Source of the DNA: Diadema setosum
Lineage: Eukaryota; Echinodermata; Echinoidea; Diadematoida; Diadematidae
DNA: 64,000 bases
Reading direction: 5' to 3'
NCBI RefSeq assembly: GCF_964275005.1
Contig: NC_092686.1
Span: 13,550,431-13,614,430, forward strand
Of the stretch, positions 415-64,000 are shown one piece after another. How positions within the stretch are numbered: position 1 is the stretch's first letter; each line of letters opens with the position of its first letter. The translations under genes were made by a program, and so were the position numbers. The notes below the pieces were generated by a model. It was given only the letters and a program-made list of their open reading frames with translations. It did no database searches and was not told the DNA's origin.

Positions 415-443
415 TGTATGCATACATATATATATACATATAT
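1..443. other. Left flank outside the duplication
   Basis: No gene is recognised here. The stretch is AT-rich with an A run near 145 and ends in a TA/CATA microsatellite. The recognisable match to the second half of the window starts only at about 444, so this is single-copy within the window. Confidence 0.5.
368..440. repeat. (TA)n / (CATA)n microsatellite
   Basis: A TA dinucleotide run changes into CATA and GTATGCA words. It sits exactly at the left edge of segmental copy A, so the duplication breakpoint lies in or beside simple sequence. Confidence 0.85.
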
Positions 444-1345
444 GGTGAACACTTGAGAAGCTTTGTTTGCATGAAGGGTTACGAAGGATTCACTGGGGCA
501 AGAAAGGGGAGTACCCTTTTGATTGTTTGTTTTACAAGTGTGCCGGCATGCTGCCATTTTGCGCCATTTGCCAAGTAGTCAAGACTCTTAAGTTATAGCT
601 GTGTAAGCACAGTGTGTCAGGTGATGAGTCGTACTTCGCTATACTTGGATAGATAAATCTAGTTATTCAAAGAATGTTCTGGAAGACTGGATATAGTAAT
701 AATGTGGGTACAGGATCTTCTGGAAGACAACTGAGAATGACTTCTCCGCAAGGTCCATCCCTGTAACCTGGCACCTTCATTCGAAGCGGCACTATTAAAA
801 TGTCCTATTCTGCGGCGCGATTCGAACCTACCGTTTTCCTATTTAGGCCCACCGACAGGCTGATTCAATGAGTGCCGATTTATGTGTGCTGTCTGATCTA
901 AAGCTTGTCGTGCTATTGACGAATCTGAACCAAGTCTAACAATTCGAAAACGCGACAAGTTATTCAACCTCGAAACCTCGTGGTTGGGAGTTTTTTTCTT
1001 TTCATCTACAATAAAGTCATACAGAAAGAAACAGTGTCAGGCAGATTGTGGCACGAAAATCTATAGCGAGACAAGTAAGTACCTATGCCTACATTGTGAC
1101 AAGTCTCTAGCCGACACGCGATGCAAAGATTTCTGAAATCTGTGAGACAGTCGTTCTTTAATAACAAAAGGCAATCATAACGCTGACACAGTGATGGTTC
1201 ATGGTCAATCTTCAATCTCAAATCCATCACACTTGAAACTCTTGTGAGGATGCATATCAATCTCAATTTCAGTGCTTGTGTTGTCTTTTTTTTTAATTTT
1301 ATCTGCCTCTGTCTTCCTCCTCTCTCTCTCTCTCTCTCTGATCAG

Positions 1346-2056
1346 TTAAAGGGATTGTATAGTTTTGGTTAAAGGTACTGTTTTACATTGGGAGCAGTGA
1401 TTTAAAAAATGTTTGAGATATCACATTTGATGCATATGTGTAGGTCAGTTGTATCACAAAACATCCTGTAAAAAATTTGCAATACAGCCTAAAATATAAG
1501 AAGATAACACTATTTTTCTCATTAAACCGTAACTGTAGACGGTTTAGTCTGGCAAAATTTTTATTATAACTAAGTTTATTTGAACTATTGTTCATATTTT
1601 GTATATTTAACAATACTTAACGTTAATTCAACAAATTCAATTTTTTACATTGGTTGTTCCTTAGGCTTTCCCTAACTAACATTTCAGAACTATTTTGAAG
1701 CACTAAAGCTGTGTTTTGTTTCATCTGCAAAATAAATGGTACATTATGCCTTTAATACCGAACTTCACGTTTCTAACATTTCTTTGTAAGATAGTGAAAA
1801 AAAGTGAGGAATTCAGTATTTATTTGACGAAAATTGGTTTTATGGCTAAGATATAAAAAACAGAGCAATCCTAATAAAATATACATGTACTTTGTTTTTG
1901 GATGTCTCAGCCACTCCATAATCAATTTTCATATAATAAATTTTGAATTCCTCCTAGCAAGGTATGCTCTGTACTATTTCATAAATGGTTTCTTGGTATC
2001 TTGAAAGTGTTAAAAGCCCAATCCTCGTCTCAACCAATACTATACCATCCCTTTAA
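1346..2056. mobile_element. TTAA-flanked MITE, family 1, copy A
   Basis: The ends are inverted repeats beginning TTAAAGGGATTGTATAG and, read from the other end, TTAAAGGGATGGTATAG. TTAA stands at both edges, as expected of Kolobok- or piggyBac-type target duplication. The shorter copy at 52278-52672 lacks the nested insertion found here. No coding capacity is seen. Confidence 0.75.
1369..1755. mobile_element. Nested TTAA MITE inside the family 1 copy
   Basis: TTAA at 1369-1372 and at 1752-1755 bound an insert whose ends read AAAGGTACTGTTTTACATT and, inverted, AAAGGCATAATGTACCATT. The copy B locus has a single TTAA at 52301-52304, followed by the same downstream sequence (ACCGAACTT). That is a clean empty site, so the insert is younger than the segmental duplication or was lost precisely from B. 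Confidence 0.8.
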
Positions 2057-2372
2057 GGGACATTTCGGACGAGTTTCATAATATCATTTCACATCATGGA
2101 GTACATAAACAAACAGCTCCATGTATAGATTTGTGGAATTAATTGTGGTCCTTGATCAGAAAAATAATTACTCTGAAAACCGAAAAAAAAATTACACTGA
2201 ACAAAGCCTCACATACTTCAGAAATGTAGCAATGTAGTCCCATTACAATACCGCGTGCTCAACAAGTTCACCTGTTTAGAATTTATACATGCTTTCTTTT
2301 GTTCTGCTTCCTTGTGAGCCCCTACTCACGCATTCTTATCATGCTTATGACGAGACTACCATCTTGTTCATT

Positions 2373-2686
2373 AGGCGTTTTCACATCAGCCCGATGAAAA
2401 TCCAAGCTCGAGATATTTTTCGCGATCGCAAATTAGCGCGCTATGTCATTTCCTATTCACATCAGCCCGAACATTATCAAATAGCGCGCTAGTTCGCATT
2501 AATTATCCTGCTATTCTGGAAATTTCCCGAGTTGGACTCGAGAAATTTTCTTGATCAGAGCGATACAATTAGCGCGCTAATTTGTTTTTACATTATCAAA
2601 TAGCGCGCTATTTCGTGATCGGGCTAATTTCCCAAGTCAGAAAATAGCGCGCTGTTTCGAAACATCGGGCTGATGTGAAAACCCCT
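2373..2686. mobile_element. 3-bp-TSD MITE with TAGCGCGCTA words, copy 1
   Basis: The terminal inverted repeats read AGGCGTTTTCACATCAGCCC at the left and AGGGGTTTTCACATCAGCCC inverted at the right. ATT is duplicated on both sides (2370-2372 and 2687-2689). The empty site in copy B reads through at 53570. Inside are four exact TAGCGCGCTA palindromes and one variant. A 3-bp target suggests the PIF/Harbinger superfamily, although the usual target is TWA. It is non-coding. Confidence 0.8.
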
Positions 2687-2734
2687 ATTGTTACAATTTT
2701 TACAAACATTTTTATTCTTCATCCCGATTACTAT

Positions 2735-3037
2735 AGGCGTTTTCACATCAGCCCGATAAAAAATCCAAGCTCGAGATATTTTTTGCTATCGCAAATTAGC
2801 GCGCTATTTCATTTCCTATTCACATCAGCCCGAACATTATCAAATAGCGCGCTAGTTCGCATTAATTATCCTGCTATTTCGGAAATTTTCCGAGTTGGAC
2901 TCGAGAAATTTTCTCGATCAATTAGCGCGCTAATTTGTGTTCACATTTCAGTAGCGCGCTATTTCGTGATCGGGTTAATTTCCCAAGTCAGAAAATAGTG
3001 CACTATTTCGAAACATCGGGCTGATGTGAAAACGCCT
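2735..3037. mobile_element. 3-bp-TSD MITE with TAGCGCGCTA words, copy 2
   Basis: Same family as the element 48 bases to the left and in the same orientation. Its end inverted repeats are AGGCGTTTTCACATCAGCCC on both sides, and TAT is duplicated at 2732-2734 and 3038-3040. Copy B shows the uninterrupted site (ACTATAAATTCTG). It carries four exact TAGCGCGCTA palindromes and one variant. Both insertions landed within one older MITE. Confidence 0.82.
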
Positions 3038-3360
3038 TATGAAATCTGAAACTCTCTATCCAGTTTAAGCAATATATATATAAGCAACAACAACAACAAC
3101 AACAAAGAGAAAATATTGAGGATAGTTTGAAGAGGTCTTGCTGGAAAACACTGACATTAGCCTTTGTTACAAAGAAAATAATATTTTCGACTGTCGAAAA
3201 TGACATTTCCCTTCATGCTTGTTCAAAATACACGGTTGGAGATATTTCTGAATTAAAATCTCTGAAACAGGGAAGTTTAACTGTACGTTAATTATCTAAT
3301 TGTAGTTTTCATGCTATATCACAAAACGCCATACAATTAGGAAATGTATGCGTCTATATT

Positions 3361-3590
3361 ATGCGATAACTTTGTTTGTTGTGCATGCGCATGTGTCGGC
3401 TAACTTCAACATGTAATGTGCGTAATAATAGAGGGAGTCATGAAAGCGGAAGTATAGTGCAGATAAACGTCCCGATGACAAGCAGCTGCCATAGTGTAGT
3501 AGCCCGTCGGTTCACAAGCGAGCGTCTCGCATGTTTACCTGATGAATCGATGAGAGCAAGTTCCTGGCGCAAAAAGCACAACATATCACT
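3361..3590 (+). promoter_or_regulatory. Conserved 5' flank and leader of gene 1
   Basis: This stretch is kept between the two duplicates up to the start codon (compare 54665-54907). It includes CATGCGCATGTG at 3384-3395 and 54689-54700, which resembles half of an NRF1-type site. No TATA box stands out. Conservation between recent duplicates is not proof of function, and the transcription start is unknown. Confidence 0.3.
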
Positions 3591-3960
3591 ATGAACAGGC
3601 TAAGTCGAAACCTATCGGCATCAAAGAAGCACAAAACGCCGCAGCTGCATCCTAAACTTACGGATGAGCCGCAGTCTGCAAGACCCGCCGGGCCGCGCTC
3701 GGTTTGCCTTAACTTCAACAAGCTGACAGTTGAGGAGCGAACGTCCAACCTGGCCCGTGTCGTCAGCACGAACACTCTACCCGTCACCATACGTCTGGCA
3801 AAAGACTTCACAATAAAGAATTCCCCGATAGCCTTTCAGAGCGGAGAGCTACTCCTCTTGTGCTTCGTCTTAGACTTGGAAAGAGTTCACGTCACAGTGG
3901 GGAAGAACGCCTACGACCTTCCTATCTATGCCAATCAACTCTACGAAAAATTACCTCTAG
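3591..3960 (+). CDS. Gene 1 exon 1: N-terminus and start of CABIT
   Basis: Encodes residues 1-123 and ends in phase 1 at GTGAGT. The first 60 residues are basic and polar, with no signal peptide. TLPVTIRLAKDF begins the CABIT-like core, followed by SGELLLLCFVLDLERVHV. The paralogous exon at 54908-55276 aligns throughout, including the donor site. Confidence 0.88.
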
Positions 3961-6900
3961 GTGAGTTTTTTTTTTTCTTTTTTATCCGCGATTCCTAAAG
4001 ATTCGGTAAACACTACATCACGAAAACATAATCCAAAGAGAACGCTTATAACAATAACCTTAATGTCAACATGATATGTACGTTATCAACGGATATGAAA
4101 GTATATGTGTTTCCTAATCTACAATCAATTTAGAAGTTTAGAATCAAGATACTAGAACTACAAATTTTATTATTTTTTTGGTCATGACGACACACTCATT
4201 GCGAATTCATTATGCAGTTACGAGAGTGACATATTTGAGTACACAAGTGACAGTTAACAGACTTATGCGTGTTTGCGACTATTTCTAACATGAATCCAGG
4301 AAATACAAATCATTCTGTTCTACAAGGAAGGAAGTCAAAAGCAATCCATACGCTATTTACAAGAAAGTTTCCTGACTTTAATCAACTCGCTATTGTGTGA
4401 ATCAACGAATTTCAAACCATTTTCACGCAACATAAAAACATGATAACATGACACAACCAAAAACGGGTATCACTTCACCGTTACAACTTCTATAGTGATA
4501 GTAGTAATTCACCATTATCTCGGGAAAGATTTTCATTTCATTTTCATTTTACACATGCATGTTCACATGCATGTTTTTTTATTTTCATTTCCAATCAAAC
4601 ACAGGTAATACACTTTGACATGATTACATATATTGAAACATAATAATACATATTGGTTCTTAAAAGAACTTCATGGAAATGGAAATTGAGGGGCTGCTAA
4701 AAAGCGAACTTGTAGATTGCAGTCCCCTCACTTACGTTACATTACTACAATACATTAATTATATATGACTTTATAACACAATACAACGATACATGTACCG
4801 TACAAGCTAATCATTGAAAGTATACAGTTTTCATTCAATCAAATCGGATGGTTACATGAAGTACAGTGTATACGCTTTCACATGTATACACATACACATT
4901 CACATGTATACACATACACATAGACATAGACATACACATACACATACACATAGACATAGACATACACATACACACATACACATAAACATACACATACACA
5001 TACACAAGCACACACACGTACCCACATACACATACGCACACACACGCACGTACACACACATGTATGCATCCACATACATTGTGCACACACAGAAGAGAGT
5101 AGGGAAAGAGAGGGCGGGAGGGGGAGAGGGAGAGTAGAGAGAGCGAAGGGCAGGTCAACATTCTCGATACAGGCAGAAGGAAAAAGAACAACAATTCCAA
5201 ACAGTCAAACTAATCATGGGGTACATATGAGCTAATCAAATATTTCTTTAAATTACTGGAGAATGATTTCAAACTAATGGAATCTTTTATATTTTTCTCA
5301 AGGGAATTCCAAAATTTTGGGCCACTGTAGATAAACGTGGATTTTGTAAATAGAGTTCGGGTAAGGGGCAAATGATATTCATCTGTTTGACGAGTGGGGT
5401 ATTTATGAATATTTTTATTCTTATTAAACATATTTTCAAAAACTGAAGGAAGTGACTTATTATACAAACTGTACATAAATTGACCAAGGTAATAATAATA
5501 CAAATCCCTTACTTTTAAAACCTTATTCTCCACAAATAATCCGTCAGTATGGGAATATTTAGAGGTATTACATATTACTCGAAGTGCTTTTTTTTGTAAC
5601 AAAAATAATCTATCCAAATAAGTTGAATGTGTATTTCCCCATATTATAATTCCATACGTTAAATAAGGTAAAATTAACGTTGAATATAACATTAGCAACT
5701 TTTTAACAGAAAAACAAAACTTTACTTTATAAATTACACCTATGTTACTGGAAATAGTGCGGCATATACAATCTATATGCTGTTTCCAAGAAAGCTTACT
5801 GTCTACAGTCACACCAAGAAATCTGACAGAATAAACCTGTTTTATCACTTCATTTTCAAAAATTATATCATGTGGCAATTTATCAAGGGTATTACTAAAC
5901 AACATCACATTTGTTTTCTGCAAATTAAGCGATAATCTATTTGCTCTTAGCCATTGCATTATCTTGTTCAATTCTATATTCATGACATCAACTAATGTAT
6001 GAGGATTTGAATGAGAAAAGAAAAGATTAGAATCATCTGCAAATAATATAAAAGAAAGAACATTTGAAGATTTTGGAAAATCATTGATGTAGATAATAAA
6101 AAGTAACGGCCCTAGTATACTTCCTTGTGGAACTCCACAATCAACTGAGCGCAAAGAAGATTTTTCATTGTTTATACAAACAAATTGTTTTCTGTCTTTC
6201 AAATAGCTTCCGAACCACTCCAAGGCCTTCCCACGTATACCATAATGATTAAGTTTATAAAGAAGAATGTCGTGGTTAATCGTGTCGAAGGCCTTGGAGA
6301 GGTCCAGGAAGATTCCTGCAGTATGTTGAAACTTATCAATTGCTCGAGATACTTTTTCAGTGAAAGATAATATTGCATGTGCTGTGCTATGTTTCTTGCG
6401 AAATCCAAATTGATATTTTGACAAAATGTCATTTCTATTTAAAAAATCTATAACTCGAGAATATATTATCTTTTCTAATATTTTAGATATATTAGGCAAA
6501 AGAGAAATAGGTCTGTAATTATTCAATTCTTCCCTATTACCCTTTTTAAAAATTGGAACTATTTTTGATATTTTCATAACATCTGGTACCTGCCCTTGTG
6601 ATATTGATAGATTAAAAATGTGAAACAAAGGATCAACAATATAAGGTATTATATTTTTTAACAGTATATTATCAATATCATCATAACCAGAACTTCTTTT
6701 AGAAGGTAAATTATGAACAATATCTAAAATCTCATATACTGTTACAGGGGAAAAAAAGATTGAATTTTGATTACCTACGTCCAGATAATCATAGAATTCT
6801 TTAGTAGACAACGGAATATTTGCACAAAGATTCCGGCCAACAGTTGAAAAATGTGAATTAAATATTTCTGCTATCATACATAAATCTTTTATTTCAAATC

Positions 6901-9900
6901 CATCATTCTTAATTTTAGAAATAACATTTCTTTCCTTATGCTTATTCAATGTTTCATTTATCAATTTCCAAGTATTGCGCATATCATTTTTAAACAAATC
7001 TAATTTTCTCATATGATAATTCCTTTTTTCTCTACGCAATACCATAGTGAGAGTATTTTTATATGCCGTATACTTATCACGGGATTGATGTGTTTTTTTA
7101 GCCTTACTTACATAATACAAATTATTTTTACGATTAATTGAACGTAATAATGACTTTGACACCCATGGCAATCTTGGATCACGTTTGTAACTACCCAACT
7201 TCTTTTTAACGAATGGAATATGTGTATCTAACAAAGTAACAATCTTATTTATAAAAATTTCATAAGCTACATTCGTATCTTGCACCACATATAAGTCAGA
7301 CCAGTCAATTTCCATCAAAGATTCCTGAAACTGGGCTATATTCTGAGGTGTAAACTTACGCCTTCTTTCATAATTCTGAGGTATTTTCGTCTTTAACTGC
7401 AAAGATGAACACATATAAATAGCATAATGATCAGATATATCCGTAAGTATAATAGCAGAATCAGGAAAAGGGTTTACATTACAAAAAATATTATCTATTA
7501 AAGTGGCAGATTGTTCTGTTACACGGGTTGGTTTTGAAGATGTTTGCGCGTGCGATAGTTTTCCTCCCGTTTTATGAATAAATATAACGGATTACTATGT
7601 ATTACGTCGTCATAATATTCTACTTAGATTAACAGTTAATTACTTCTTTTTGTCATTCTGTATAATGGCGAAGTGATTCACTTCGGGACAAATAAATTTA
7701 GATGACGTCTATTCTATATATATATTTTTTTCTTATTCGAAACACTTCTTGTTTGATAGTGTAGTTCTAGTGTATGTCCCGTTTAATGTGACTTTTCATT
7801 TGATCATTTTTATTTTAATGAAAAGTACTCATAATTCTCTCGACTTTTTATTAACATAATTATGTTAAGGGTAATAGCCTTGTTCCCCCTATCTTCTGGA
7901 AGAAGTAAGTCAAGTGCTCTTCACGTTGCTAGAAAGATGAAAATATATTGAATTCTATTTATATTTTCTTTACATCGTTGTCGTATTTTGACGTCGCAAA
8001 CTGTTGGGTAGTCTTCCCATCCAACAACGGCGGCACTGAATCATAACGTTCGAACGGATTGCTGATTTTCTTCAAACTTAACTGATGTGTATTCTATTAT
8101 ATTATGAATATTGCTGTATTCACTCAGTCCACACAAAATAAGAATGAACTTTTATCTTAAAAGCGTTCATGGTGATTTTGCGGACATCGTTCACGTTTTG
8201 AGAAGTCTTGCCAATATGACGACGCTTTTAAAATATTTTTGAGAACAAATCACGAGAACATAAAAAATTGGATAGCAGGAAACATATTAGCGAGCAATTT
8301 ATTTTTCTTTATTTTTCATAAATCCCACCCCCCCCCAAAAAAAAAAAGACGCCGCGAACAATGCAACGACGCTTCCGACAGTCCGAATGCCCGCGTGCTG
8401 GTTTGGCATGAAATGCGAAAGCTGGCCTTTATGCCATATTGCCATATTTCTGCCCTGCGTGCGCAACCAGTCAAATCTACTCCTAGCCTATCAGCTACAG
8501 TCCTTAAATTGGCCTTGACAAGCCTTTCCAATCCGGTCACTGTCAAATCCCGACTAAGGAATTCTTCAACATCAAAATCAGCCATGATAACTACTACGTT
8601 AGTACGACCGTACAAAATGCATACCACCTAATCGAATGTCAAAGCAAACGAAAGGCTAATTGAAACGACCACGAATGGGTTCGGGAGACCAAACAAATAG
8701 ACCTAGTCACTAAACGTCACCTCTGCAACAACTTTGCAGCAAACATGCATACAACCAACTTCAGGTCATAAGGTTTTCACCTTACCCTAGAAAAGGAGGC
8801 AAATTACACCAAACGCCCCATCAAACGATTGCCATGCATACCAGTGACCACAAACGTGACTACAGTCTACTCATCGCATCAAAATGCGTAGCTGATGGGA
8901 CTATGCCAACGTCTCCGCAACGACGACACCGTCTACGAACTTCAACATCCAAACACAGTATGACTTGAATGTCCATGCAGTTCCTGGACAACCCCCCAAT
9001 TATTACGGAACGGTGGGAAATATGGTGGTACGACGTGTCACACATTTCTGACAACAAACAAATCACCACCACCTTACCAAACTTGAGTAAGTTCAACAAA
9101 ACTTTATTCCTCCCCTCGCCTGAAGCGTCGATGATTGTCCACAGTCTCGATCCATCTTTTTCCTCTAATGTGGGCCGAACTGATGACCACACCCACAAAT
9201 AGTTAATGCATATTCATGACAATATAATAATTATGTTTAAAAATCAAATTGCCTTTAGATATGTTTCAATCACAGTTTGTGTTAAGAAGATATGGAAAAT
9301 TGATAACATTGCTGCTAGGCAATGGATCAAATATCAAAGTTGTTTTTTTTTTTTTTTTTACGTTTAGTTATCATTTACTTCTGAGGGTCCTTCATGTTGA
9401 CTAAATCTTAGAGAAGAGAAGTGACGTGTGTGACTGTGTTTATTCAGGCTCTAAAGTTCTAAGCATGAAGTACCAAAACAAATATGACATTTTTGTTTAT
9501 TTACAAGTATATTGGAATAACTGCAGCAAATGTAGGATACAAACGATTGTTATGGAAGTATGATCACTGATTGCAAGCACAATACCCTAATCACTTTTAC
9601 AAACATGTAGCCAAGCCCAATCCTTTCTTTCACCTATAACAATTACTTTACAGATTTAACGAATATTCATGGTATGTGTTCCTCAGCAACGGTTGCAAAG
9701 AAGCAATTATGGAAATTCTCCATAGCATCGTTCACTATATAAGATTGATTGCACTAGGACACGTCTTTCACTGACAAGTGGTTCGTCATCCGATAGGTAC
9801 CTTGTCATATCAAAACTTCTTTTTAAGGCCATCGACCAACGACTTTCAGTTGCAAGGCTTACCGACTTTAGATCTGAACTAAATCAGAATATCCTCAGAA

Positions 9901-12723
9901 TAAACACCCTTGTTTATTTCAGGTCCAAAGTCGGTCAGTCGTGCGATCGGAAGTCGTAGGGTGTATGGTAACGATGGTCTTTACTCTCCATCCCACAAGG
10001 TAAGAAGCCTTGATGGTTCTCATATTAATACGAACTTTCACGTCAAAGAGTTGACGCTTACTGGCCTCTAGCAAGCGTCATGACTATTATTGTATATCAG
10101 CAGCACGCCGTGCTTATCCTGAGATGAGCGGTACTTATCATCATGTATGTCCTACACTGTAGGATCTATATTCAAACAACGTTAACAAGGTGAATGAAGG
10201 GGAAAAAGAACAAAAATAAACAATGCAAATCTCTGGCTTTCATCTTTGACATTTAGATTTGACTGCGTGAGAACTATATTTACCTATGTCTTTGAGATAT
10301 TATTGTATGGTGATAAATATAGAGTTTGAACAATGCACAACTGTAGTTCCCATGACCAATGTATGAATAATTGTATGTATAAATAACGGACTTCAACCGG
10401 CCATCATAAATTCACGAATACAGTTCAGTTCAGTTCAGTTCAGTTTTTTCCATCTGACAAGATGGCTGGATAACCCATATTCAGCTACGTTAAGCTGGTC
10501 TTCCATGGGGTCCAGTTGGATGTGAGGTGGGACCACTTCACCGGGTTAAACACCCTGCTCTTTGCGATGAATGAATGAAGCGGGATCTTTTACGTGCATG
10601 AGTTGTTGCTCTCTCATACACGGGACCTCCATTTTATGTCCTATCCGAGGGACAGAGTGTTTTGCCTCTTGCTAGAGGGGACGGTATGTTTACACACAAC
10701 ATTGCTCAGTCCAGACTCGGGTTCGAACCCGGGCCGCGTGATCGTGAGGCAGACGCGCTACCGACTGAGCCAACTCACCGCCCTAATACATTATTCGCAT
10801 ACTTATAATAATCACTTAAAGGGGCATTCTAGACGATTTTCATAATTTCACATCATTTAGTACATAAATCGACAACTGCATGTATAGATTTGTGGAATTT
10901 ATTGTGGTTCTTAAGCAGAGAAAAATACTTTGAAAAATGTTAAACAAATTACACTGAACAAGGTTGATGACATATAGGAGGCTAACATATTTCAGAAATG
11001 TACCAGTGTAATTCTTTTACAATACTGCTTGCTTGCGAGTTCACCTGTGTATAATCCATGCATACCTTCTTCTTTTGTTCTGCTTCCTTGAGCCCCAAAT
11101 CATGCATTCTTATGGTGACTCTGCCATGTCATCATCCTTGTTCATTGCAATTTGTTCTAAATTTTGAAAATAGTCCTATTCTTAATCCCAATTATCATAA
11201 ATATATTGTGAAACTCTGTCCTCAGTATAACTAATCTATAGTTGTTCAAATGGAAAAATCTGAAAATCATCCGGAGGTCTCCTTTAAGTACCATTTGCGT
11301 CATTTTGCTCTTGGACTTTGCTCTTCGATTGCTCTTGGCGTTGCATACATTGTGTTTAAACAACTGCATTTTACGAACAAAGTAATAATCAGTGCTGAAG
11401 TCTTATCTCTGGAATTGTTCAAGTGTTCTCTTTGGTCTACTTCAGTAAACGATGTAAAAGTTACATGTCTCTATTCCTGCTTATCATTTTTTTTTTTTTT
11501 TTGCAATGAAATGCAATACTTCGACTCGTATATAGGTTTAATGCTTACTGCTTCTAAACTAACGCGTCCATCACATTGACACTATTAGACCGGGGGCCCA
11601 GAGCATTTATTCAGCTGAAAAGGGTCACACTTTTTGATGGTCTCATCATGTAAGGATGTGGCCAAGGGTCAATAAAATGAATTGCTGGCAAGTCACATCC
11701 TGTACCGTAAGCCTAGGGACCACAAAAAGGGACCCCGAAAAATGGATTTATTCAGCCGAAGGGGGTCACGGACAAAAGTTGGTGGATATTGTTCCTTTGG
11801 GTGTACTTATCATGAAAACAGCAATGCCAGCTATTTTATCCTGTACGGGGCCCCAGACAGTAGCCCCAAAGGGCCCCAGAAATATGGTGTTATTCAGCTG
11901 AAAAGGGTCACGGCTAATTTCTTTTGCAATGGAAGTAGTTCCCATCAGAGATATCCAAAACACCAATGCCAGCTATTTTATCCTGTACGGGGCCCTAGAC
12001 AGTAGCCCCAAAGGGCCCCACCCCCCATAGGCCTACGTATAAACACACACAAACATTGATTTTATTCAATTAAAAAGAGTCAGGGCTAATTTCTTTTGCA
12101 ATGGAAGGAATACCAATCAGAGATATCCAAAACACCAAAGCCAGCTATTTTATCCTGCACGGGGCCCCAGACAGTTGCCCCAAAGTGCTCCACCCCCTAT
12201 AAGCCCTACGTACAAACACACACACACATTGACTTTATTCAGCTGATAAGAGTAACGGCTAATATCATTTGCAATGGAAGTAGTACCCATCAGAGACATA
12301 CAAAACACCAAAGCCAGTTATTTTGTCCTGTACGGGGCCCTAGACAGTAGCCCCAAAGTGCCCCCCCCCCCCAACACACATACTCACACAATAGTTTCAT
12401 TCACCTGAAAAAGGGTCACGGCTAATTTCTTTTGCAATGGAATTAGTACCCATCAGAGAAATCCAAAATACCAAAGCCAGTTATTTTATCCTGCATGGGG
12501 CCCAGACAGTAGCCCCAGATAGTAGCCCCAAATTGCCCCCTTACCCCCTCCCCCTCCCCTCCCCCCCCCTCCCACACACACACACATTGATTTTATTCAG
12601 CTGAAAAGGGTCACGGCTACTTTTGCAATCGGAAGTAGTACTCATCAGAGAATAATATCCAAAGCACTAAAGCCAGTTATTTCATCCTGTACGGGGCCCC
12701 AGACAGTAGCCCCAAAGTGCCCC

Positions 12724-12787
<64 letters not shown>

Positions 12788-13123
12788 TGGTTTCATTCAC
12801 CTGAAAAAGGGTCACGGCTAATTTCTTTTGCAATGGAATTAGTACCCATCAGAGAAATCCAAAATACCAAAGCCAGTTATTTTATCCTGCATGGGGCCCC
12901 AGACAGTAGCCCCAGATAGTAGCCCCAAATTGCCCCCTTACCCCCCCCCCTCCCCTCCCCCCCCCCCCCTCCCACACACACACACATTGATTTTATTCAG
13001 CTGAAAAGGGTCACGGCTACTTTCTTTGCAATCGGAAGTAGTACTCATCAGAAATAATATCCAAAGCACTAAAGCCAGTTATTTCATCTGTACGGGGCCC
13101 CAGACAGTAGCCCAAAGTGCCCC

Positions 13124-13171
<48 letters not shown>

Positions 13172-15998
13172 CATATATATGGTTTCATTCAGCCGAAAAG
13201 GGTCACGGCTAATTTCTTTTGCAATGGAAGTAGTAATCCATGGATATCAAAATACCAAAGTCAGATATCTTATCCTGCACGGGGTCCCGTACAGTAGCTC
13301 CAAAGTGTTTTGCTTTATTCTCTTTGTTGTGTGCATCTCTTCTTCTTAGATATGCGCTCCTTCGTCTTCATTTTCGCGACAACGACAACGCGTCCTCCTC
13401 ATCATCATCAGTTTTGCTGTTCTGGCAAACATTTCCAGCGTATCGGCCATACGTTCGATTTTAGAGCGGCGAGAGCGGAAGACGTGCATAATGAGTCCGG
13501 GAAAGCGTAGGAACAGCGAAGCTAAAGCGGCCAACAGCGTTATCGAAGCAGGAATGAAGCGTCGTAGGAACAGGCCTTGATTTTATACGAGAGTAGAGAA
13601 CTATGAGAGCGTCGTTAAAGCGGGAAGGTCGTGCTTTGATCAAGAAAGCGGCGTAGCAGCGGGACCATGTCGTCGGTGTCTAGTTTAGACTATATTTCCC
13701 GTTCTTGTGCCGCTGTTACTACGGTCAGAAAAACCTGGAATTGTTACGCCCATCCCGCGGTATTTACACTGTCACTGCTCTCTCCCCGTTTGAGCTACGA
13801 TTCAAAATAGGTCAATCTTGATGGGGAGATGAGGAAGAAATTTTGAACCAGTTCAAAATTTCTTCCCGATCTGTAAAATTGCCAGATCCAACCCCATCAC
13901 CCAAACGCTGCTGCTACGATGCTCCGGTCCCGTACACTTTTGCCGCTCTCTCCCGATCTGACAGATTGAATAGATCGGGATGCAGATCTTGATAGTGGAA
14001 TTACATGTGGGGACACTTTAGGAACACTGCGTGGGGCCCCGTACAGCTATATAACTGGTTTCGGTGTTTTTGATACCTCCTTGAGTACTACTTCCATTGC
14101 AAAAGAAATTATAGCAATGATTCTTTTCACTTAGAACAAAATAATACGGGAGCACTTTCCAGCTACTGGCTGGGGGCCCCTTAACTGGATGGGTTTGTGT
14201 TTTACGTATCTCAGCTGTTAATTCCACTGCCAAGGAAAATAGGCACACATGACTGTTTTCACCTAAAAACAATTAATTCATATGGGGTGGGAATACCTTG
14301 GGGCTATACCTGTCAAGGGCCCTGTATCCGGGCCAATATCGCACCTCTTTTAATCGAATTCTTTAATGTTGAATTAAATTTAGCAAAATTTCGCCTAGAT
14401 GACATGGTAGTTCAATGTCATATTAATCTCTTCGTTCAAATTTATTTTGAAACATTCACATTACCTCTAACCTTATTCTAAATAACACTTTTTCAAATAA
14501 ATCCATACATAAGACAAGTACCATTCCACTATCCGTTCATTCATAAATTCATAATGATATAGTCACGTGATTACATGCTGCGCTCGTTCATTCAAATTGA
14601 TTTCTGGCCATCTAATTTAACATGTTCTGCAGTCAATTAAACAGATATGTTCATGCTTGGCCTCTTTCCTTATTTTCTTTCGTCGTAGTTATTGTTTTGT
14701 AAGCATCATAGCATTTCATGTTTTCGTATTCGTTTAAGAGACTTTGACACCATTTTTTAACGTGCTTTTTTGAATCCAAAGAAGTAAGAAGCCACAAATT
14801 ATCTGGCCGTTACGAGCGCTTTATTACGAGCGGTCGGCCAGTAACAAGAAGTCATGGTTATGATCCTCAAATGTTTGTTGTTGTTTTTTTTTATAATTCT
14901 TTCTATGTCTTCTAGAGATATACGTCTGTATATATTGTGCTGTATGACTATAAAAAATGAAGTTAAGCTGCATTACTGGTACACGTATAGGCCTATAATG
15001 ACATGTATATGAAAGAGAAGGAGCGTTACCAGTCTGGTTACAGAACAACCAAATCCAGTTATACTAGATAAGAAATATGACACTTTACTGCTTTATAACA
15101 GGAATTTATAGGTGAAACGAAAACACACATAGAAAGACATGTTAAAAAGATCTGAAACAAAGAAATAGCATGATTTGAATTTGAATGAACACGTTTGGAA
15201 TTTGACTGTCTTTCGCGAAATTTAATGACTGAAATACACTTTTCGGCAAGTCAAGGCGAATTTGAATGAACGTAGGGTACCAGCCAATTTGAATACCCAT
15301 TTACGAATTCGAACCTTCTATCAAAATTAATGAACCACAAAAGTGCGAAATTGGCTGGGAAAACCTAACTGGCTTTGATGTTTTGGGTATCTATGATGTA
15401 AACTAAGGCCTACTTCGATTGTTAAAAGAAAAACAACATATGACTCCTTTTCAGCTAAGGAATGATGTCATAATATTATGTGGGGGAGGGGCACTTTATA
15501 GCTACTGTAACCTGGGCCCAGTACAAGATGAAATGACTGGTTTTCGTAATATGGTCATCTTGGTTGTGCACTATACAGAAGTATGCTTCCTTTGCAAATT
15601 TCTTGAGTGTTTTGCTACTGTAACCTATGGGACCCCGTATTCAGGATAAGATGACTTGCTTTAGTGTTTGTGATATCTCTGTTCAGTAGGCCCTGATATT
15701 AACGTTACAAAAGAATTTGTAAGACCATTTTCAGCTGATTCACAGTACATGTATAATGGATGGGACACTGTGGAGCTACTGTCTAGGGCTCTGTGCAGGA
15801 TGAAATAACTAGCCTTGGTGTGGTGAATATCTCTGATAGGTACTTCTTCCAGTGCAAAAGAAATTACCCGTGTTTGGGGCTATACTGTGCGGGGCCCCAT
15901 ACAGGATAAAATAACTGGCTTTGGTATTTTGGATATCTCTGATGGGTACCACTTCCATTGCAAAAGAAATTAGCCGTGACCCTTTTCAGCTGAATGAA

Positions 15999-16054
<56 letters not shown>

Positions 16055-16195
16055 AGAGAGGGGGGCACTTTGGGGCTACTGTCTGGGGCCCCGTTCAGGA
16101 TAAAATAACTGGCTTTGGTGCTTTGGATATCTCTGATGGGTATACTTCCATTGCAAAAGAAATTAGCCTTGACCCATTTTGGCTGAATGAAACTA

Positions 16196-16274
<79 letters not shown>

Positions 16275-19200
16275 GGGGGGTGCACTTCGGGGCTACTGTC
16301 TGGGACCCCGTACAGGATAAAATAACTGGCTTTAGTGTTTTGGATATCTCTGATGAGTATGCCTACTACCAATTGCAAAAGAAAGTAGCCATGACCCTTT
16401 CAGCTGAACAAAATCAATGTGTGTGTGTGGGGGGGGGGGGGAGGGAGCAATTTGGGGCTACTGACTGGGGCCCGTGCAGGATAAAATAGGTGGCTTTGGT
16501 ATTTTGGATATCTCTGATGGGTACTACTTCCATTGCAAAAGAAATTAGCCGTGACTCTTTTCAGCTGAATGAAACTCGTGTGGGTGTGTGTGTCGGGGGG
16601 GGGGGGGGGGGAGCTCCTTTGGGGCTACTGTCCGGGGCCCCGTACTGGATAACATAGCTGACTTTGGTGTTTTTGATATCTCTGATGGGTACTCCTTCCA
16701 TTGCAAATGAAATTAGCCGTGACTCTTCTCAGCTGCACGAATGAAATCAGTGTTTGTGTGTGTTTGTACGTATGGCCTATGGGGGTGGGGCACTTTGGGG
16801 CTACTGTCTGGGGCCCCGTACAGGATAAAATAGCTGGTATTGGTGTTTTGAATATCTCTGATGGGAACTACTTCAATTGCAAAAGAAATTAGCCGTGACT
16901 CTTTTCAACTGAATAAAATCAATGTTTGTGTGTGTTTGTACGTAGGCCTATGGGGGGTGGGGCACTTTGGGGCTACTGTCTGGGGCCCCGTACAGGATAA
17001 AATAGCTGGTATTGGTGTTTTGAATATCTCTGATGGGAACTACTTCAATTGCAAAAGAAATTAGCCGTGACTCTTTTCAACTGAATAAAATCAATGTTTG
17101 TGTGTGTTTGTACGTAGGCCTATGGGGGGTGGGGCCCTTTGGGGCTACTGTCTAGGGCCCCGTACAGGATAAAATAGCTGGCATTGGTGTTTTGGATATC
17201 TCTGATTGGAACTACTATCATTGCAAAAGAAATTAGCCGTGACCCTTTTCAGCTGAATAACACCATATTTCTGGGGCCCTTTGGGGCTACTGTCTGGGGC
17301 CCCGTACAGGATAAAATAGCTGGCATTGCTGTTTTCATGATAAGTACACCCAAAGGAACAACATCCACCAACTTTTGTCCGTGACCCCCTTCGGCTGAAT
17401 AAATCCACTTTTCGGGGTCCCTTTTTGTGGTCCCTAGGCTTACGGTACAGGATGTGACTTGCCAGCAATGCATTTTATTGACCCTTGGACACATCCCTAT
17501 ATGATGAGACTATTAAAAAGTGTGACCCTTTTCAGCTGAATAAATCTTCTGGGCCCCCGGTCTATATACAATGTATCAATACTTTACAATGGGAGGTTTT
17601 GTAACAGGATGTTTCATGTCTATAGAACTTAGGCTTTATAGCTGCGGCTATAACTGTTTCGTTAAACATTTTCGCTCTTGCGCTTAAGGGGCCAGACATA
17701 CATCGCTGTACATTGTGTTCTTGTGTAGTTATAAAACAGCAAACTAGGAACAAAATACAGACAAAATAATCAACAATCAAATTTTTCAGGGATGTGTTGG
17801 TTTTCCCCTTTTTTACTTGATAAAAGCTACGATAATTGTGTATGTCTATATAAGTGTTTTATCTTTCATATAGCAAAAACAAATTCCTGGCGGCACCTTG
17901 AAATGTATATATATATATATATATATATTTAGTAAAGACAATTTTTTGGTTTCGTTAATCATGTGTTTTGATTGTTTGTGTTTTTGTTTGTTTTTTTGTT
18001 TGTTTGTTTTGTTTTGATTTTCCACAATGAGGCCGTATAAGATGGTAGGCCTACTGATGGCAGTGTCAGAGCGTAAATCCCCCCCCCCCCCAAAAAAAAA
18101 AAACTGTATCGCAATTGACAAACCAAATTTTCTTTATTTTGCACGCAATGGCTATTTGATCTGAAGCGAACGTTCGAGAGATGACTAGTGTTCACTGTAT
18201 TATTATCCATCCTGTCGTTACGCCATCTAACTACGACAGCTTCTTTTTGACCAATTTAGCAGAAAACGCATTCAAGCATAGCCATGATGGCTGGAGATGT
18301 ATAGTTCGCGAAAAAGAAAAACCACACACACACACACACACACACGCACACAAACAAGGAAACAAAAAACTAATCGTCGACAAGAAAATCGTGATCATCT
18401 GCCGCAGCAGAAATACTGAAACGGATGCAAATAGATTAACCAAATAAAAATGATATTTTCAGTAATGCACACATCAAAGCCTTAGTATCAGTCTCCATTC
18501 AGAAGTGCCAGCAGCAATCGGTATTTGTGATTTCGTGAAATATTTCTTGAAAAGTAATCTTTTGGGAGTCTTCGAAATATTCCATATCAGGTGAATATAA
18601 CTGCTGTTGTCGATGGTTGTTGTTTTATAATCGTCCATTGTTTGAGCCCGTATCAACAATACTTTAGCGTTTCTCTTTCCATCTTTATGTGCTCCCTCAA
18701 CCACAACACCGGAACTCCAATGTTCACAAGTGCTGTTACTTGTTGTACATTGTTGTTGTACTAATAAAACTTATTTCACTTTGAACTGAATGGATTTTCA
18801 AGTATAGAATGGTTACAATTAGCCATTTCCCCTAAACATTATGCTAACCGAACTATCAAAAAAAAAAAAAAAAAAAAGAGAAATGTCAAAATAGGTGTGA
18901 GGGGTTCAAAAGAGAGATGATAAAGCAATAACACCAGAAACAGAATGTTTCAAAGACACCAAAATGACTTCTGTTACTTTTGAAAAGTGATTATTTTTGT
19001 TCTTTATGTGTGCTCACTCATGCATGACTAAACAAATCACCGTCGTTCTCACTCAGAAGTTAGTCAAGACGTGTATAGAAACACCCTTGCCTAATGGTTT
19101 TGCCAAAGTATTTTCGTTAAAAAGATTTTTTTATTATTATTTTTTTTTCTTTTTTTCATTTATTTTCATTCTTCTTTTTTTTTTTCTTTCAACAAAAACA

Positions 19201-22200
19201 TAACACAAGATAAATCAGGTATTATACATCATAAACAAAAAACATTTGCCTTTGCAATATATAAATGATATCGATAAACATAAGAGCGCATACTGGCAAA
19301 AAAAAAATAATACAAAGTCATGCTTCAGATGAAAAAAAAAGGAAGAAAGAGTAGAGAGGTCCACTAAAAAGCAAAGCTTGTAGATTGTGAACCACTCATA
19401 AAACTTAGGAATTACTTAGTTACAAACACTTGTGATAGATGTGACATACGACAGAACGGGACAAAACAGAAGAAACACAACAACATGACACAACCTGCCA
19501 GAATAGATGAAAAGTATGGAAGGAAAGAAAGAAAAAGAGAGAGAATGAGAGAATGCCTACACGCTGAACAAGGGAAATGGAACAGGGGATGGTAGAGAGT
19601 GTGCTTCATAGAGTTGGCGCTGATTGCAGCTGTGCAAGGATTGTGATGGCTACTGACAGAACGGGACAAAACAGAAGAAACACAACAACATGACACAACC
19701 TGCCAGAATAGATGAAAAGTATGGAAGGAAAGAAAGAAAAAGAGAGAGAATGAGAGAATGCCTACACGCTGAACAAGGGAAATGGAACAGGGGATGGTAG
19801 AGAGTGTGCTTCATAGAGTTGGCGCTGATTGCAGCTGTGCAAGGATTGTGATGGCTACTTCTTTACGTAATAATGAATTCAGTGATTGAATAATTGGTAG
19901 GTGGATGATAAACCGTGAGGTTGACGAAATCTATAGCTAAGGAAAAAAAAAACATATCAGAGAGGATTTAAGAGAAAAGATTTCAACTTGCGCTTAAAAG
20001 AATACAAAGATGGGGAATTTTTTTATTTCACAGCTCAGTGAGTTCCAAAATCTAGGACCGGTGTATATAAATGTATTCTGAGCCAATAAAGTTCTCAGGA
20101 GGGGTAAATGAAACTCATTAGATTGTCTAGTGGGATAATCATGAAAAGACTGGTTCCGTGGGAACATTGAATTGAAAATACTGGGAAGTGCATTTATATT
20201 GTAATTCAACGTAAACTGACCAAGTTGAAAAAAATACAAATCTTTAATTTTCAAAATCTTCAAAATAATGGCTCTGTATTGGAACGTGGCGGGACGCCAC
20301 AAATAATACGAATAACCTTTTTTTTTTTGTAATAACAGTAGTTTATCTAGTAAATTTTGATGGGCACTACCCCACGCTAGGAGTCCGTACCAAGATAAGG
20401 GAAGTTGTAATTCACAGATGCTTCTTTTCCTTCAGCCTAGTAATAACAATTTAATTATGTTGCTCCCAATTATAACAATACCGTTTCTAAGGCAGGAATT
20501 CACTTAATTTGTGCTATAGGTAGTGACGTCTCCAGGAAGCTTTGTGTTTGCTTTTCTGAACAAGGCATGCCTAGAATTCAATACATTACAGAAACGGTCT
20601 ATTATGCATGAAACTTTTATCATATTCTTTTTTATGACTCACATTGCTCATTTTGTTTGCAGAAGCTACAATCCGTATTTCAGCTCTAGCTTATGCATTA
20701 CCCTGGAAATGTTATCATAATGTGATCATACAATATGTACTGGTAAAATGACTCCTTTTACTCACTATATTGCATATTTATCCATAGATATAATGTATGG
20801 ATTTTTGATGTCGATAGTCCCCACCAGGACATTTATGAAGCATTTTGAGTGAAGCAAATCTTAGCGTTGCGCGTTAATCCTATCAATGCATTTTGTTTTG
20901 TTTTTTAATCATATGGTCCACTTTTTGTGATACTCTGACTTTTAATTGATGTTCAGACTGAATGCATGAATATCACAACGATAGCAATAATGAAGGTCAG
21001 CAGTTAGAAGTTACCTTCAGACGGTGATCCTTTACGTAGAGGATAATCTAACTACGACGATAAGCTCTATGGGGTGCCAAGTGTCGCACAGTTGTTTCGT
21101 TTACGAAATCGACCGTGTGACTCGATTGGCGCCCCATAGTGCTTATCCTCGAATTAAGTTATTCTATCCCCGAGGATCACTGTCTGAACGTAACTAATGT
21201 ATCTACTTACAAGTCTACACACTGACTTGCGTCTACACACTGACTTGCATTAACGATACAGATTTCTTGAGGCACAGGGAGAACTAATGATTAGAGATTT
21301 GTGGCAGATATGGTGGAGATTTAGACAAATAATAAATAAGGTAGAGTACACGTATTAACACATCATCTGACACGTGCATGCTAGTCTCACACTGTTTTTG
21401 TTTTATGTTTGCAGATCCTCGTCTGGACGACAAGATATACCGTGGAACGAGAGCCTTGATTGAAGCTAAGCCTCGTCCTTCACAAGTGCGCATCGTTGAT
21501 GCTCAGCTCTTCGCTGATCCAATGGCAAACCAGTCGTCAGGTGACGTCATCACCATTCGAACAGTCGATGTCCAGAACCATCCCGAGAGAGGGAAAGAAA
21601 GGGTAATGATTATAGCTAGAGAGCAGAATGCATTGATATGTGACGTCACACCATGGGGTCCTATCAGATGAATAGCATTTCTGTAAGCCCATACTCATGG
21701 TGTTTTTTTTTTGTTCGTTTGCGAGACTTCATATTTTTAATAGAGGGAAGGATATTTTTTTTTGGACAGATCAGAGGTTCCAGCATATCTCAAGAGCAAT
21801 AAACAAAGTCGGAACGACATAATCTCTCAGTATGTTGCAAGCACCGAGTTGTCCACTGTAAATGTAATATAGGCCTACGTATAAATTTATATATTGAATA
21901 AAGTATGATATCAACGGTAGTTATGTTGGGAAGATTGAAGAAAGGATCAGGAATGCATGTATATATGTATGAGATGGAGATGTTGGCGTTGACGGTGATG
22001 TTCAGTTAGGTGCAGCGGTTTATGAACCACAAGCAGTGAACCAGAGTAAACCATAGCCACGACATGTGGCTGGGGTGATGGCCGGTGATGACATTACATA
22101 CGACGGTGACTTACAAGTGTCTGAAATCCTGCATGAATATCTTGCAGGCATTATTGCCTCCCGCCCTTCAAAAACATGCAAGCAAACAAACAGCTATCAA

Positions 22201-32290: not shown

Positions 32291-32472
32291 TCATTGTATA
32301 GTTTTCCACTTCACCTCAAATGGGGTGAAAAGATTACTGTTAAGCCATCTTTTATAAAGGTTATCGCTGACTTGTTTCGTATTAAAAAAAAGAAATGCGT
32401 TCGAAAACATGATTCTACGGAAGGTCATTGCGGAGCTGGAGAGTGGAGAACATCGACAGACAAAAGCCAATT

Positions 32473-33038
32473 TTAAAGGGAAGGTAAACCCAAAAAGCAA
32501 TGTGGATTGAGTGAAAGCACCAACATTAGTAGAACACATCAGTGAAAGTTTGAGGAAAATCGGACAATCAATGCAAAAGTTATGAATTTTTAAAGTTTTA
32601 GTGTTGAAACCGCTGGATGAGGAGACTACTAGAGGATATGACGTATGAGTGGACAACAATACAAAGAAAATATAAAGGAAATTCAACAAAAATTCACTTT
32701 TCTAGAATTATGAAAGAGCAATGGACCAACCTCTTTCAGAAAGCAGGGGGAATAATTGCTACCCCTAACATATATCAATATCAAGTTGATGGAATTTGTA
32801 ATTTTCATGAAAACTGGATTTTTGTAGAATTTTCTTTATATTTTCTTGGTATTGTTGTCCACTCATACGTCATAACCTCTAGTAATCTCCTCGTCCAGCG
32901 GTTCCAACACCAAAACTTTAAAAATTCATAACTTTTGCATCGATTGCCCGATTTTCCTCAAACTTTCACTGATGTGTTCTACTAATGTTGCTGCTTTCAC
33001 TCAATCCACATTGCTCTTGGGGTTTATCTTCCCTTTAA
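32473..33038. mobile_element. TTAA MITE, family 3, long inverted ends
   Basis: TTAA on both sides, with terminal inverted repeats beginning AAAGGGAAGGTAAACCC and, inverted, AAAGGGAAGATAAACCC. The arms extend 200 bases or more, so frames open on both strands mirror each other. A second copy in the opposite orientation is at 59840-60400. Confidence 0.85.
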
Positions 33039-34128
33039 CATTTTGCCGATCACTTCCAACAGATGGCACTGAATTATGGTTTGATCATCAAGTACAATAA
33101 TTCTCTACCAATCTGTAAATTGGATTGTGTAAAGATGTCTTCAACTGATTAATTTCTGTATTCATTCAATCTAAATTCGCGCATGCCAAGATATGCTAAT
33201 GAATTAGGGACAGCGAAAAGTAGCTACCATCAAAAAGAAATATCTTGGCTGCCACCGGCTGCCACTATATATGCAAAGAAACATTTATAAATTGTTTTCA
33301 AATCTTCATAAATATCATATCTTGATCTTCAGATCCAGTTTGACACAAACCTGTGAAGAATAAGTGTGGATATGCTGAAAAGTTAGGTGTCTTGACGCGA
33401 AACTGGATCAGAGCAGGACCCTTTTCGATGAGATAGTTGCAGACCTTAAAACAGAAACAGAAACAAAGAAACAGCTATTTCTCCCTTTGAATATATCAGC
33501 TATATTGATTTCGTTGTATGTGACATCGGATGAGTCAAATGATCTTGAGTCTAAACTGGATACTACCCTTCATTTGTGTCATAAGCTCATAATTTGTTAA
33601 AAAAAAAAAACACTTGTAAAATATAGCAGCTATCCTGGAATAAAATTGTAAATAATTCAAACGTGGAATAGTGCTGCAGTCTCTATTTTGAGTCTCCACA
33701 TGTGACGACTCACATTGTACAGTACCTTGAAGACAACCACTCTTGCATGTAAAACATTCAAGTCCGATGAGTTTCTTATTGTACGTCTAGCAGTTTCTCT
33801 GCAGTTACTGTATTAACTTACTGATCCATTGTAAACACTGGGGGATTTGATCTCTAAACCTGTACATGCCTTGCTGTGGAAAAAAGAGAGAGCCATCATT
33901 AGAAAGGTTTCACTTTAATTTGTCAAAAAATGTAGACGAACACAAGACATCAATATCACTGAGGTGGTCAGTTGGTTAAGGTTTTGTCGAAATCATTACC
34001 CTATAATAACGTAATGAAGTTTCATTTTTAGAATACTGGAAGTCGATTATTGTGAATATTCATGTCCTTATATGCACAAATATCCGTCTTTGTTATTATT
34101 GCATGATCACGGTAATCACAAATGTCAC
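33039..34128. other. Nothing recognised
   Basis: AT-rich, with an A run at 33600. One weak frame around 33380-33600 has no motif or convincing splice sites. Confidence 0.45.
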
Positions 34129-36283: not shown

Positions 36284-37312
36284 GTCAGTATTATCATCGA
36301 AAGTCTGACGTAACGTTAACTAAAAACAAGAAAGCACACACGAGGACCACGTATTGTATCAGTGTGTGCAAGAATAATTCAGCTCTGTACTTTGCGTTTG
36401 TGCTAAAAGAAGTTTTATACCTTCTTGGTTTACGCACATGAGACTTGTATTTGAAAGTGACCTAATGTACAAACATAAATGCAGCATAATCTAATTTTAG
36501 GCTGACTACATCATCTCTTAAAATAGGCATGATAAGGGCTGGTCGATTTCGTAGCATTATGAGGATTCTCAAGTCTTTTGTTACTGGCTTTTACACTGTT
36601 TGTAGCAATGAGGTGCTGGAAAAATGATGAGGAATGACTTTTAGCACGATAATGCATAATTGGAAAGCTTAATATGGCCAATAAAAATAAAACTAAGCAT
36701 AACATGATCAGGAACTGTATTAGGTTTGTTTGATTAGGGGTCACATTTATATATACAAAATATTCGTTGATTGTGTGTGATCGATATTGGATGACACCAG
36801 AAAGTCATGCGAAACAATCAAACGGCCCTGAAATTTTGTGTTGAAAGTTCTCATCATAATTTTACATTTGCATTATTGATAGAAACTTGTAAATCACATC
36901 TCACCCATAAAAAGGCTTAGACAGTACTTAAAAGATTTTGTTCCGCCCTCAGTTCTTCTTCAATTTTTAACTGACGAGCATGACGAGATTCAGCTCTAGC
37001 CTTGTATTTCCCGTGGTCTGCCTTTATGATAAGATTAATGAGTTGTTTTATTTGTAGGTCAATATCTTCGAGGCAATACTGTAAAACACGAAATATTCGC
37101 GGCATGAAAATTTCGCGATCGGAGCCGATGGCCTTTCTCACAGCATGACATTTTCGCAAATTTTAACTGGCATCCAATGCACATTGTGTAGGCAAGAACT
37201 TTCGCGTGCATTTTAATTTCGCGAATGTCGGTGCTCGCGAAATTCGCGAAATTAAAATGCACGCGAACATTCCTCGTTTGTTTAATTAACTTTGATGTTA
37301 TGTGCTTTGCAG
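36284..37312 (+). other. Intron of the second cassette with a CGCGAA-rich MITE
   Basis: About 37078-37285 holds an imperfect inverted repeat with ACGAAATATTCGCGGCATG at the left and, inverted, ACGAGGAATGTTCGCGTGCA, and many TTTCGCGA words. The remainder is unremarkable. Confidence 0.55.
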
Positions 37313-37732
37313 AAATTGACAAAGGAAAATCGGGAATTCAAAGACAAGCTATCCAGATCGCCTGCACCTGGGCGATACGTAAATCTCCCCTCTAGAAACC
37401 CTTCCGAGGAGGAGGAGGAGGATGACTACGAAGACAGCCATGAGTACCTCACGCCGATCATACCAGAGAAACGACCTTTGCCCATCGGCTCGTCCAGCAC
37501 GCTTCTCAGGTCGACGAGCAGGCACGACGCAGAATTGCTCAGCTTTGACGGGGTCAGAATCTTGCTTCTGAAGCTCGGGCTTGAACAGTACGCCCAGCGA
37601 TTCGCTGACGAAGTTGTTAACGGCGCCCTACTGGTCCACCTGGAGGAAAAAGCAACATTTCCTGGAACTGGGCATGAGCGCTTTCCACGCACGCAAACTG
37701 AAGGTTAAAATTTCAGGCGGACTGCCTGCCAC
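37313..37732 (+). CDS. Tyrosine linker and SAM exon of the second cassette
   Basis: Codons 1-21 continue the coil. YVNL fits the pYxN consensus bound by the GRB2 SH2 domain. The EEEEEDDYED stretch is acidic. SAM follows without an intron, unlike gene 1, where linker and SAM are in separate exons. The frame is disrupted within SAM, as described for the whole cassette. Confidence 0.72.
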
Positions 37733-40864: not shown

Positions 40865-41110
40865 AAGTGATACAGACATATACTTTCACCAAGGCATGTT
40901 GTCTGGATAATTTTCTCCCGATTTAATGGCCTATTTTGCCACTTTTGCTTTTCCCGGAGATTATTTTGGAGATGACTGAATGGACTGTGTAAATCCCTCG
41001 TCATATTGACTTTGATGGAACAAGTGACATTGGACTCAAAAGCAAATAAGTAAGTACTTTTTCTATCGTACATCGCTGTTCTAGTCAAAGCACGTGTGAC
41101 TGACTGTGAA

Positions 41111-41971
41111 ATGGCTGCACAGCATCCTCGCACAGCAAAGCCAGTGGGCTCTACGCCCGCGCCCTCCACTGAAGCTGCGGTGCTGCCGGTGGGCACCGCA
41201 CCTGCGCCCTCCGGCCGCATGCTACACATGCCCAGTGAAAGTTCGATGCTTGCGGACATTTGGTCAAAAATGCCACTTCTTGAATCAGTTTCTTCAAAAC
41301 TTGACAAACTGTGTGATAGAATAGAACAAGTGGAATCTAAGGTGGCTGAAATTGAACACCATGTGTCAGAGATGGATCATGGTTTGAGTCATTTTGAACT
41401 TGATTTGGAGGAACTGAAATGTAAAATTGAATCTAAAGCAGACAAGTCCACCATTGTCAAGCTTGAGACACAGATCGTAGATTTAGTCAATAGAAACAAA
41501 AGGAACAATGTAGTCCTACACAATGTGCCTGAAGGTGCGGAGGAGGATGCCTCAGATTGTAAGGCAGTGGTACATGCCTTTGTGCGCGACGCTCTTGGTA
41601 TCCCGCACTCTATGGAGATCGATCGTGCCCATCGCACTCCGATGAGGATGACGGTACGACCAGATGAACCCAGGGGAAACAAAAGACCGCGCCCCATCCA
41701 CGTTCGCTTTTTGCGTTATGGAGACCGTGAATTGGTGCTGAAGACTGCTATTATCAAACGTGGTGTAGAATTCGGTGGGAACCGTATTTTCGTATCGGAC
41801 GACGTACACAAATCGACGCGCGAAAAACACCAACAGCTGATGAAAAAAGTGAAGCAATTGCGCGAAGATGGCCATTTTGCATTTATTCCTTGGTCTGTCC
41901 CCCGTGTCATCAAGTATAAGGAAGGAGGGAAGGGAGCAGTAGGACCACTCAAGACTATTCGCGATCTATAG
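41111..41971 (+). CDS. LINE ORF1 protein, L1-type RNA-binding protein
   Basis: 286 residues starting from ATG at 41111. An upstream in-frame GTG at 41096 is not used as the start. A proline/alanine-rich N-terminus precedes a long coiled coil (LDKLCDRIEQVESKVAEIE and following, about residues 55-120). An RRM-like core follows, with NRNKRNNVVLHNVPEG and IDRAHRTP, then a basic C-terminal domain (IIKRGVEFGGNRIFVSDDV, HKSTREKHQQLMKKV). This is the transposase_22/L1 ORF1p plan: a trimeric RNA chaperone that coats the LINE RNA. It lacks CCHC zinc knuckles, which some Tx1 relatives carry. It is complete. Confidence 0.88.
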   Translation: MAAQHPRTAKPVGSTPAPSTEAAVLPVGTAPAPSGRMLHMPSESSMLADIWSKMPLLESVSSKLDKLCDRIEQVESKVAEIEHHVSEMDHGLSHFELDLEELKCKIESKADKSTIVKLETQIVDLVNRNKRNNVVLHNVPEGAEEDASDCKAVVHAFVRDALGIPHSMEIDRAHRTPMRMTVRPDEPRGNKRPRPIHVRFLRYGDRELVLKTAIIKRGVEFGGNRIFVSDDVHKSTREKHQQLMKKVKQLREDGHFAFIPWSVPRVIKYKEGGKGAVGPLKTIRDL

Positions 41972-42141
41972 ACAGAGTATAGTTGATGCGGGAAAAGCAT
42001 GGTATTCGTACAAAATGAACGTGTTTCAACACTGGACATTGATTAGGGCCTTTTTGAATGGCAGAGGAAAGTTAATTTTGCGAACATTATTTTGTCCCCC
42101 TGAGTTTCAGAATTTTTTTTTGAGAATTTTGAGAAGAAACA

Positions 42142-63990: not shown

Positions 63991-64000
63991 TTATTGGGGA

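Follow-up and report, generated by a model that had tools for sequence, protein, structure and literature searches.

The foldback element found at positions 11586-17564 of the window (the whole stretch of 64,000 nucleotides of Diadema setosum DNA analysed here) is, with high probability, a single insertion of a non-autonomous DNA transposon of the cut-and-paste type, with a foldback architecture. Direct support for this reading comes from the inverted ends, a 3-base flanking repeat, an empty paralogous site, opposed ladders of repeated units, and a unique middle in which no transposase was recognised. Against it count the single copy seen, without transposase or moving partner, and a duplication of just 3 bases for which the margin between models is small. 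No second copy of the element occurs within this window.

The limits of the element were set by its terminal inverted repeats and by the empty paralogous site. The motif TAGACCGGGGGCCC begins at 11586 and GGGCCCCCGGTCTA finishes at 17564, exactly the two positions given by a first-pass annotation made from the letters alone. The mirror likeness of the two ends is far beyond chance, with a local score of 1065 for the outer 600 bases of both ends, whereas none of 200 single-base shuffles scores above 26. Compared without gaps, one end and the other end reversed are identical at 155/164, 290/300, 483/500, and 573/600 positions over the outer 164, 300, 500, and 600 bases, respectively, which bears out the description of the terminal 500 bases as near-perfect mirrors. 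The alignment of whole arms (11586-13304 against 17564-15873) has 1473 identical columns out of 1779, the longest perfect run being 143. In the predicted fold of the plus strand (-3351.5 kcal/mol), position 11586 pairs with 17564, and there are 1417 pairs between left and right. Going by this fold, it is plausible that the arms, if transcribed, would give long double-stranded RNA.

The insertion site can be compared with a paralogous one. Blocks 9396-19144 and 60842-63995 match in several collinear pieces at ~70-80% identity, and the second of them is uninterrupted at 62621-62645 (plus strand), where the element-bearing block is broken. The same annotation had correctly reported that a paralogous locus near 62628 lacks the element and that TAT flanks it: the trinucleotide is present at 11583-11585 and at 17565-17567 (plus strand), a 3-base flank match with a chance probability of ~0.019. 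Among three models of the empty site, the one that counts TAT once scores best (144); a model without any duplication reaches 141, and one that assumes a duplicated TA reaches 139. Given these small margins, the flanking TAT is likely, but not proven, to be a target duplication. GACAC and CAATG occur once each at the empty site, which therefore has space for ~3 duplicated bases and none for 7-10. Given that the paralogous site is empty, that TAT stands at either end, and that a duplication is likely, the element behaves as one inserted as a unit, as do members of the foldback type when this is taken as an architectural class.

Two sequences just outside the tips were considered as parts of the element and rejected. 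The CACTA next to the tip, which might have suggested a CACTA-type transposon, is made of flank bases, since CAC is also found at the paralogous empty site, and the likeness between ACATTG and CAATGT is shared by the empty site and thus belongs to the target. More precisely, at 62624-62641 the empty site is part of an imperfectly palindromic sequence, ACATTG...CAATGT, so a preference for such targets is conceivable. The collinearity of 9396-19144 with 60842-63995, and that of 443-4533 with 50672-55844, probably reflects local segmental duplication. The frame at 3546-3995 has 86% of 80 aa in common with the one at 54860-55144, and neither matches a Pfam family.

Each arm starts with the tip sequence TAGACCGGGGGCCCAGA and a diverged unit-like stretch, and the ladder comes next. 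The left tip, made of the terminal motif and the diverged unit, spans 11586-11747 (plus strand) and is mirrored by the right tip at 17403-17564 (minus strand). Its unit-like stretch scores 51-66, with shuffle maxima of 32-40, and the right counterpart is the one identical to it at 155 of 164 bases. Inside the tips, unit alignment resolves the arms into opposed ladders of one ~130-base unit, which are unequal: units L0-L8 at 11748-13307 (plus strand) and units R14-R0 at 14010-17402 (minus strand), i.e., 9 on the left and 15 on the right, counts that depend on the score cut used. Several inner units of the right arm give only weak matches, with blastn E values as high as 0.002. The earlier figure of about ten units per arm was hence only a rough count, although the ladders themselves are there, and long inverted arms containing tandem repeats are what places the element in the foldback type as an architectural class. 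The exact sequence TTCAGCTGAA occurs 9 times within the element and is absent from the remaining window, and GGGGCCCC occurs 13 times within the element. The arms had also been said to carry microsatellites, and the element indeed holds 8 (CA/GT)n runs of at least six repeats, the longest being 38. The junctions of outer units have a spacer with GGCCTACGTA-like sequence, long CA/GT runs lie between L5-L6, L7-L8, R8-R7, and R7-R6, and the innermost spacers are short.

Between the ladders lies a unique middle of 702 bases (13308-14009), with a palindrome of two 22-nt arms at 13827-13872; it has no match elsewhere in the window beyond short stretches. The right ladder is broken by a ~1-kb stretch at 14335-15353 (ends approximate) that splits unit R12, pieces of which are found on either side, and that is probably a nested insert. 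Its ends, GCCAATATCGCAC and GTGCGAAATTGGC, are complementary at 12 of 13 bases. A longer end-to-end similarity of this stretch scored 80, not above its shuffles (maximum 83).

Frames of at least 40 aa overlapping 11500-17650 number 85 in the list examined, the longest of them (120 aa) lying inside the repeats. Of ten frames from the central part searched against Pfam, nine have no match, and the tenth has a sub-threshold one (E 0.0034) to a family of unknown function. No transposase was recognised among these ten, in agreement with the initial view that no such frame is visible. The unit had not been matched to a named family, and exact-pattern searches gave none either: no match was found in contig collections of viruses or prokaryotes, from which the source organism may be absent, nor for the unit string as exact text in the literature. 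Rfam gave no match on the window.

Other repeats and frames were recorded in the same window. Two near-palindromic short elements, at 32469-33042 and 59841-60400, have inverted halves identical at 217/234 and 219/227 positions, and the two copies agree at 97% across 564 bases. Long open frames at 41054-46099 encode 305 aa and then 1256 aa, the second matching endonuclease, reverse transcriptase, and zf-RVT; we take them to be an L1/Tx1-like element. A 792-aa frame on the minus strand (5210-7588) matches reverse transcriptase (E 2.8e-39), and a related fragment lies at 19997-20431. A perfect tandem duplication of 205 bases occupies 19450-19859, and the frame 37286-37705, looked at for the host gene context, has a SAM domain match below the cut-off (E 0.024) that names no gene.

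Three other explanations of the structure have to be weighed. The one that fares best, and is still improbable, is that two satellite-like tandem arrays were put in opposite orientation by an inversion or by two insertions. It would suit the unequal number of units (9 and 15) and the lack of correspondence between inner units. However, the same tip closes both arms at single positions, and one break in the paralogous block explains the whole. No stretch between the arms matches this block, and together with the one break at the empty site this speaks against separate insertions of the arms.

Helitron/HINE elements are not known to have terminal inverted repeats at their ends or a target duplication, and the element studied here has inverted terminal repeats, so it does not belong with them. 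In the excerpted description of such elements from oyster (PMC7492417), satellite-like repeats combine with a microsatellite, and the unit length of ~170 and microsatellite spacer are similar in kind. Yet there are two arrays here, inverted relative to each other, the element closes at both extremes with inverted tips next to a TAT, and the microsatellite lies between units rather than in one flank as in the oyster excerpt; we thus give this explanation very little weight. An assembly artefact, such as a read folded back on itself, is equally far-fetched: long inverted repeats are a known form of artefact, but the arms differ too much (1473/1779) for a folded read, their unit numbers are not the same, and the paralogous block lacks the structure.

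Within the element, read as a transposon insertion, the history of the arms can be approached through their units. The identity between arms is 99% for L0/R0 and 98% for L1/R1, and only 155/164 for the tip. Units at the same position in the two arms match each other when units 0-8 are considered (p 0.013), and this is lost with units 2-8 (p 0.39). Units R3 and R2 (16787-17088, minus strand) are mutually identical in the unit alignment, and L6-L7 (12795-13123, plus strand) are a recent copy of L4-L5, with unit identities of 100% and 97% and an array period of 396. These local copies, together with the absence of positional matching for units 2-8, indicate that each arm has a turnover of its own, through local duplication.

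Mutual identity averages 88% among the outer 15 units (L1-L7, R1-R8) and 64% among the inner six (R9-R14), a grouping made once the data had been seen. Position and identity to the outer-unit consensus have a rank correlation of -0.72 in the right arm (p 0.0036) and -0.57 in the left (p 0.14); using this consensus favours such a result. So old unit material appears, from these alignments, to stand inside on the right arm. A bolder idea suggested by these figures, which we hold only tentatively and consider rather doubtful, is that the ladder is an age-graded conveyor, in which units form directly behind a conserved cap (the tip with units 0-1) and shift towards the middle as they age.

As for the mechanism, a transposase encoded elsewhere in the genome would recognise the ends of the element and move it in trans. 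The repeated units could provide more sites for such recognition, since block one of the unit (TTATTCAGCTGAAAAGGGTCAC) recurs at the end of the element, immediately behind the tip. In both arms, the tip plus block one is similar to junctions T/0 and 0/1, with scores of 40 and 49 and shuffle maxima of 25-31. This likeness is absent at junction 1/2 (28, shuffle 28), and at junction 2/3 it stems only from the TTATTCAGCTGA block. Among the old units, no block stands out clearly as conserved over 13 windows (chi-square p 0.075), a result that does not support conserved binding blocks in them. By analogy with Galileo, the units may be extra binding sites for the transposase.

The arms would lengthen by separate tandem duplication of a unit resembling the element's own end, and they might grow or shrink separately through unequal exchange or slippage, or through abortive gap repair after excision. 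The outer part could be kept alike by selection on the ends or by gene conversion between arms. A simple view in which the ends are kept identical is at odds with the tip (155/164) being less alike than the next module (L0/R0, 99%).

The sea urchin TU elements have an 8-bp target duplication and short (~15 bp) repeats, and target duplications in the TU and FB families are of 8-9 bp. The likeness to TU/FB elements proposed in the first-pass annotation holds for the architecture, long inverted arms with tandem repeats being shared with TU, but not for the duplication, which does not fit the empty site. The flanks GACACTAT and TATACAAT agree at 5 of 8 positions and the empty site leaves ~3 duplicated bases, so that the one copy read gives no support for membership in TU. 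A TA duplication of the Tc1/mariner type would be conceivable with GACC as the start of the element, a model that scores 139 compared with 144 for TAT.

Our best reading of the published accounts, in the excerpts at hand, is that the closest analogues are Tetris, Galileo, and MtPH-A6-4. Tetris, a foldback element of Drosophila virilis, is described with target duplications of 8-10 bp and arms of up to 1,735 bp (PMC4079207). Like our element, it has a non-coding middle and long inverted arms, in which a flanking domain is joined by tandem units (~220 bp in Tetris) that vary in number; unit and flanking domain have a stretch in common, and the number of units changes when a unit is duplicated (PMC4079207). 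Our element departs from these excerpts on Tetris in its 3-bp duplication, in the unit itself, and in the CA/GT runs that separate many of the units. Tm1, a Mutator-type foldback of root-knot nematodes, also has tandem-repeat arms whose repeat number differs between ends, with repeats of 13-15 bp and duplications of 9 bp in the excerpted report that set it apart (PMC3169594). The 8-10 bp target duplication of these Mutator-type foldbacks (PMC4079207, PMC3169594) is not found at the empty site, as far as one copy tells.

Galileo, of the P superfamily, is reported to hold secondary transposase binding sites in the tandem repeats of its arms (PMC3688188), and it likewise has long arms with internal tandem repeats that are unequal between the two ends (PMC3688188, PMC3573991). 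Its excerpted descriptions give 7-bp flanking repeats and a known transposase, whereas the single copy studied here has no 7-bp duplication and no transposase was seen, so we do not place it in this superfamily. MtPH-A6-4, a PIF/Harbinger element of Medicago, shares opposed tandem ladders, a 3-bp duplication, paralogous empty sites, and nested inserts; it differs, in the excerpted report, by a 60-bp repeat, TTA/TAA duplications, and short terminal repeats (PMC2213677). The TTA/TAA duplication of PIF/Harbinger is not found here: in the one copy available, the duplication is TAT if the tip is TAGACC, and the neighbours are TTA and TAT if the tip is GACC.

The element thus looks like one more family of an architecture known from flies and a plant. 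In flies, foldback elements of such a kind give rise to satellite DNA and to inversions. If other copies agree, it would be another independent case of DNA-transposon arms turned into tandem-repeat ladders. The combination of ladder arms with an apparent 3-base duplication is already in print for MtPH-A6-4 and was not seen in the excerpted accounts of Tetris, Galileo, or Tm1. Were the conveyor to be true, CA/GT runs would expand in middle-aged units and vanish in the oldest, and the element would record its own history of arm growth. Such layered arms would allow reading the order of unit duplications within one element.
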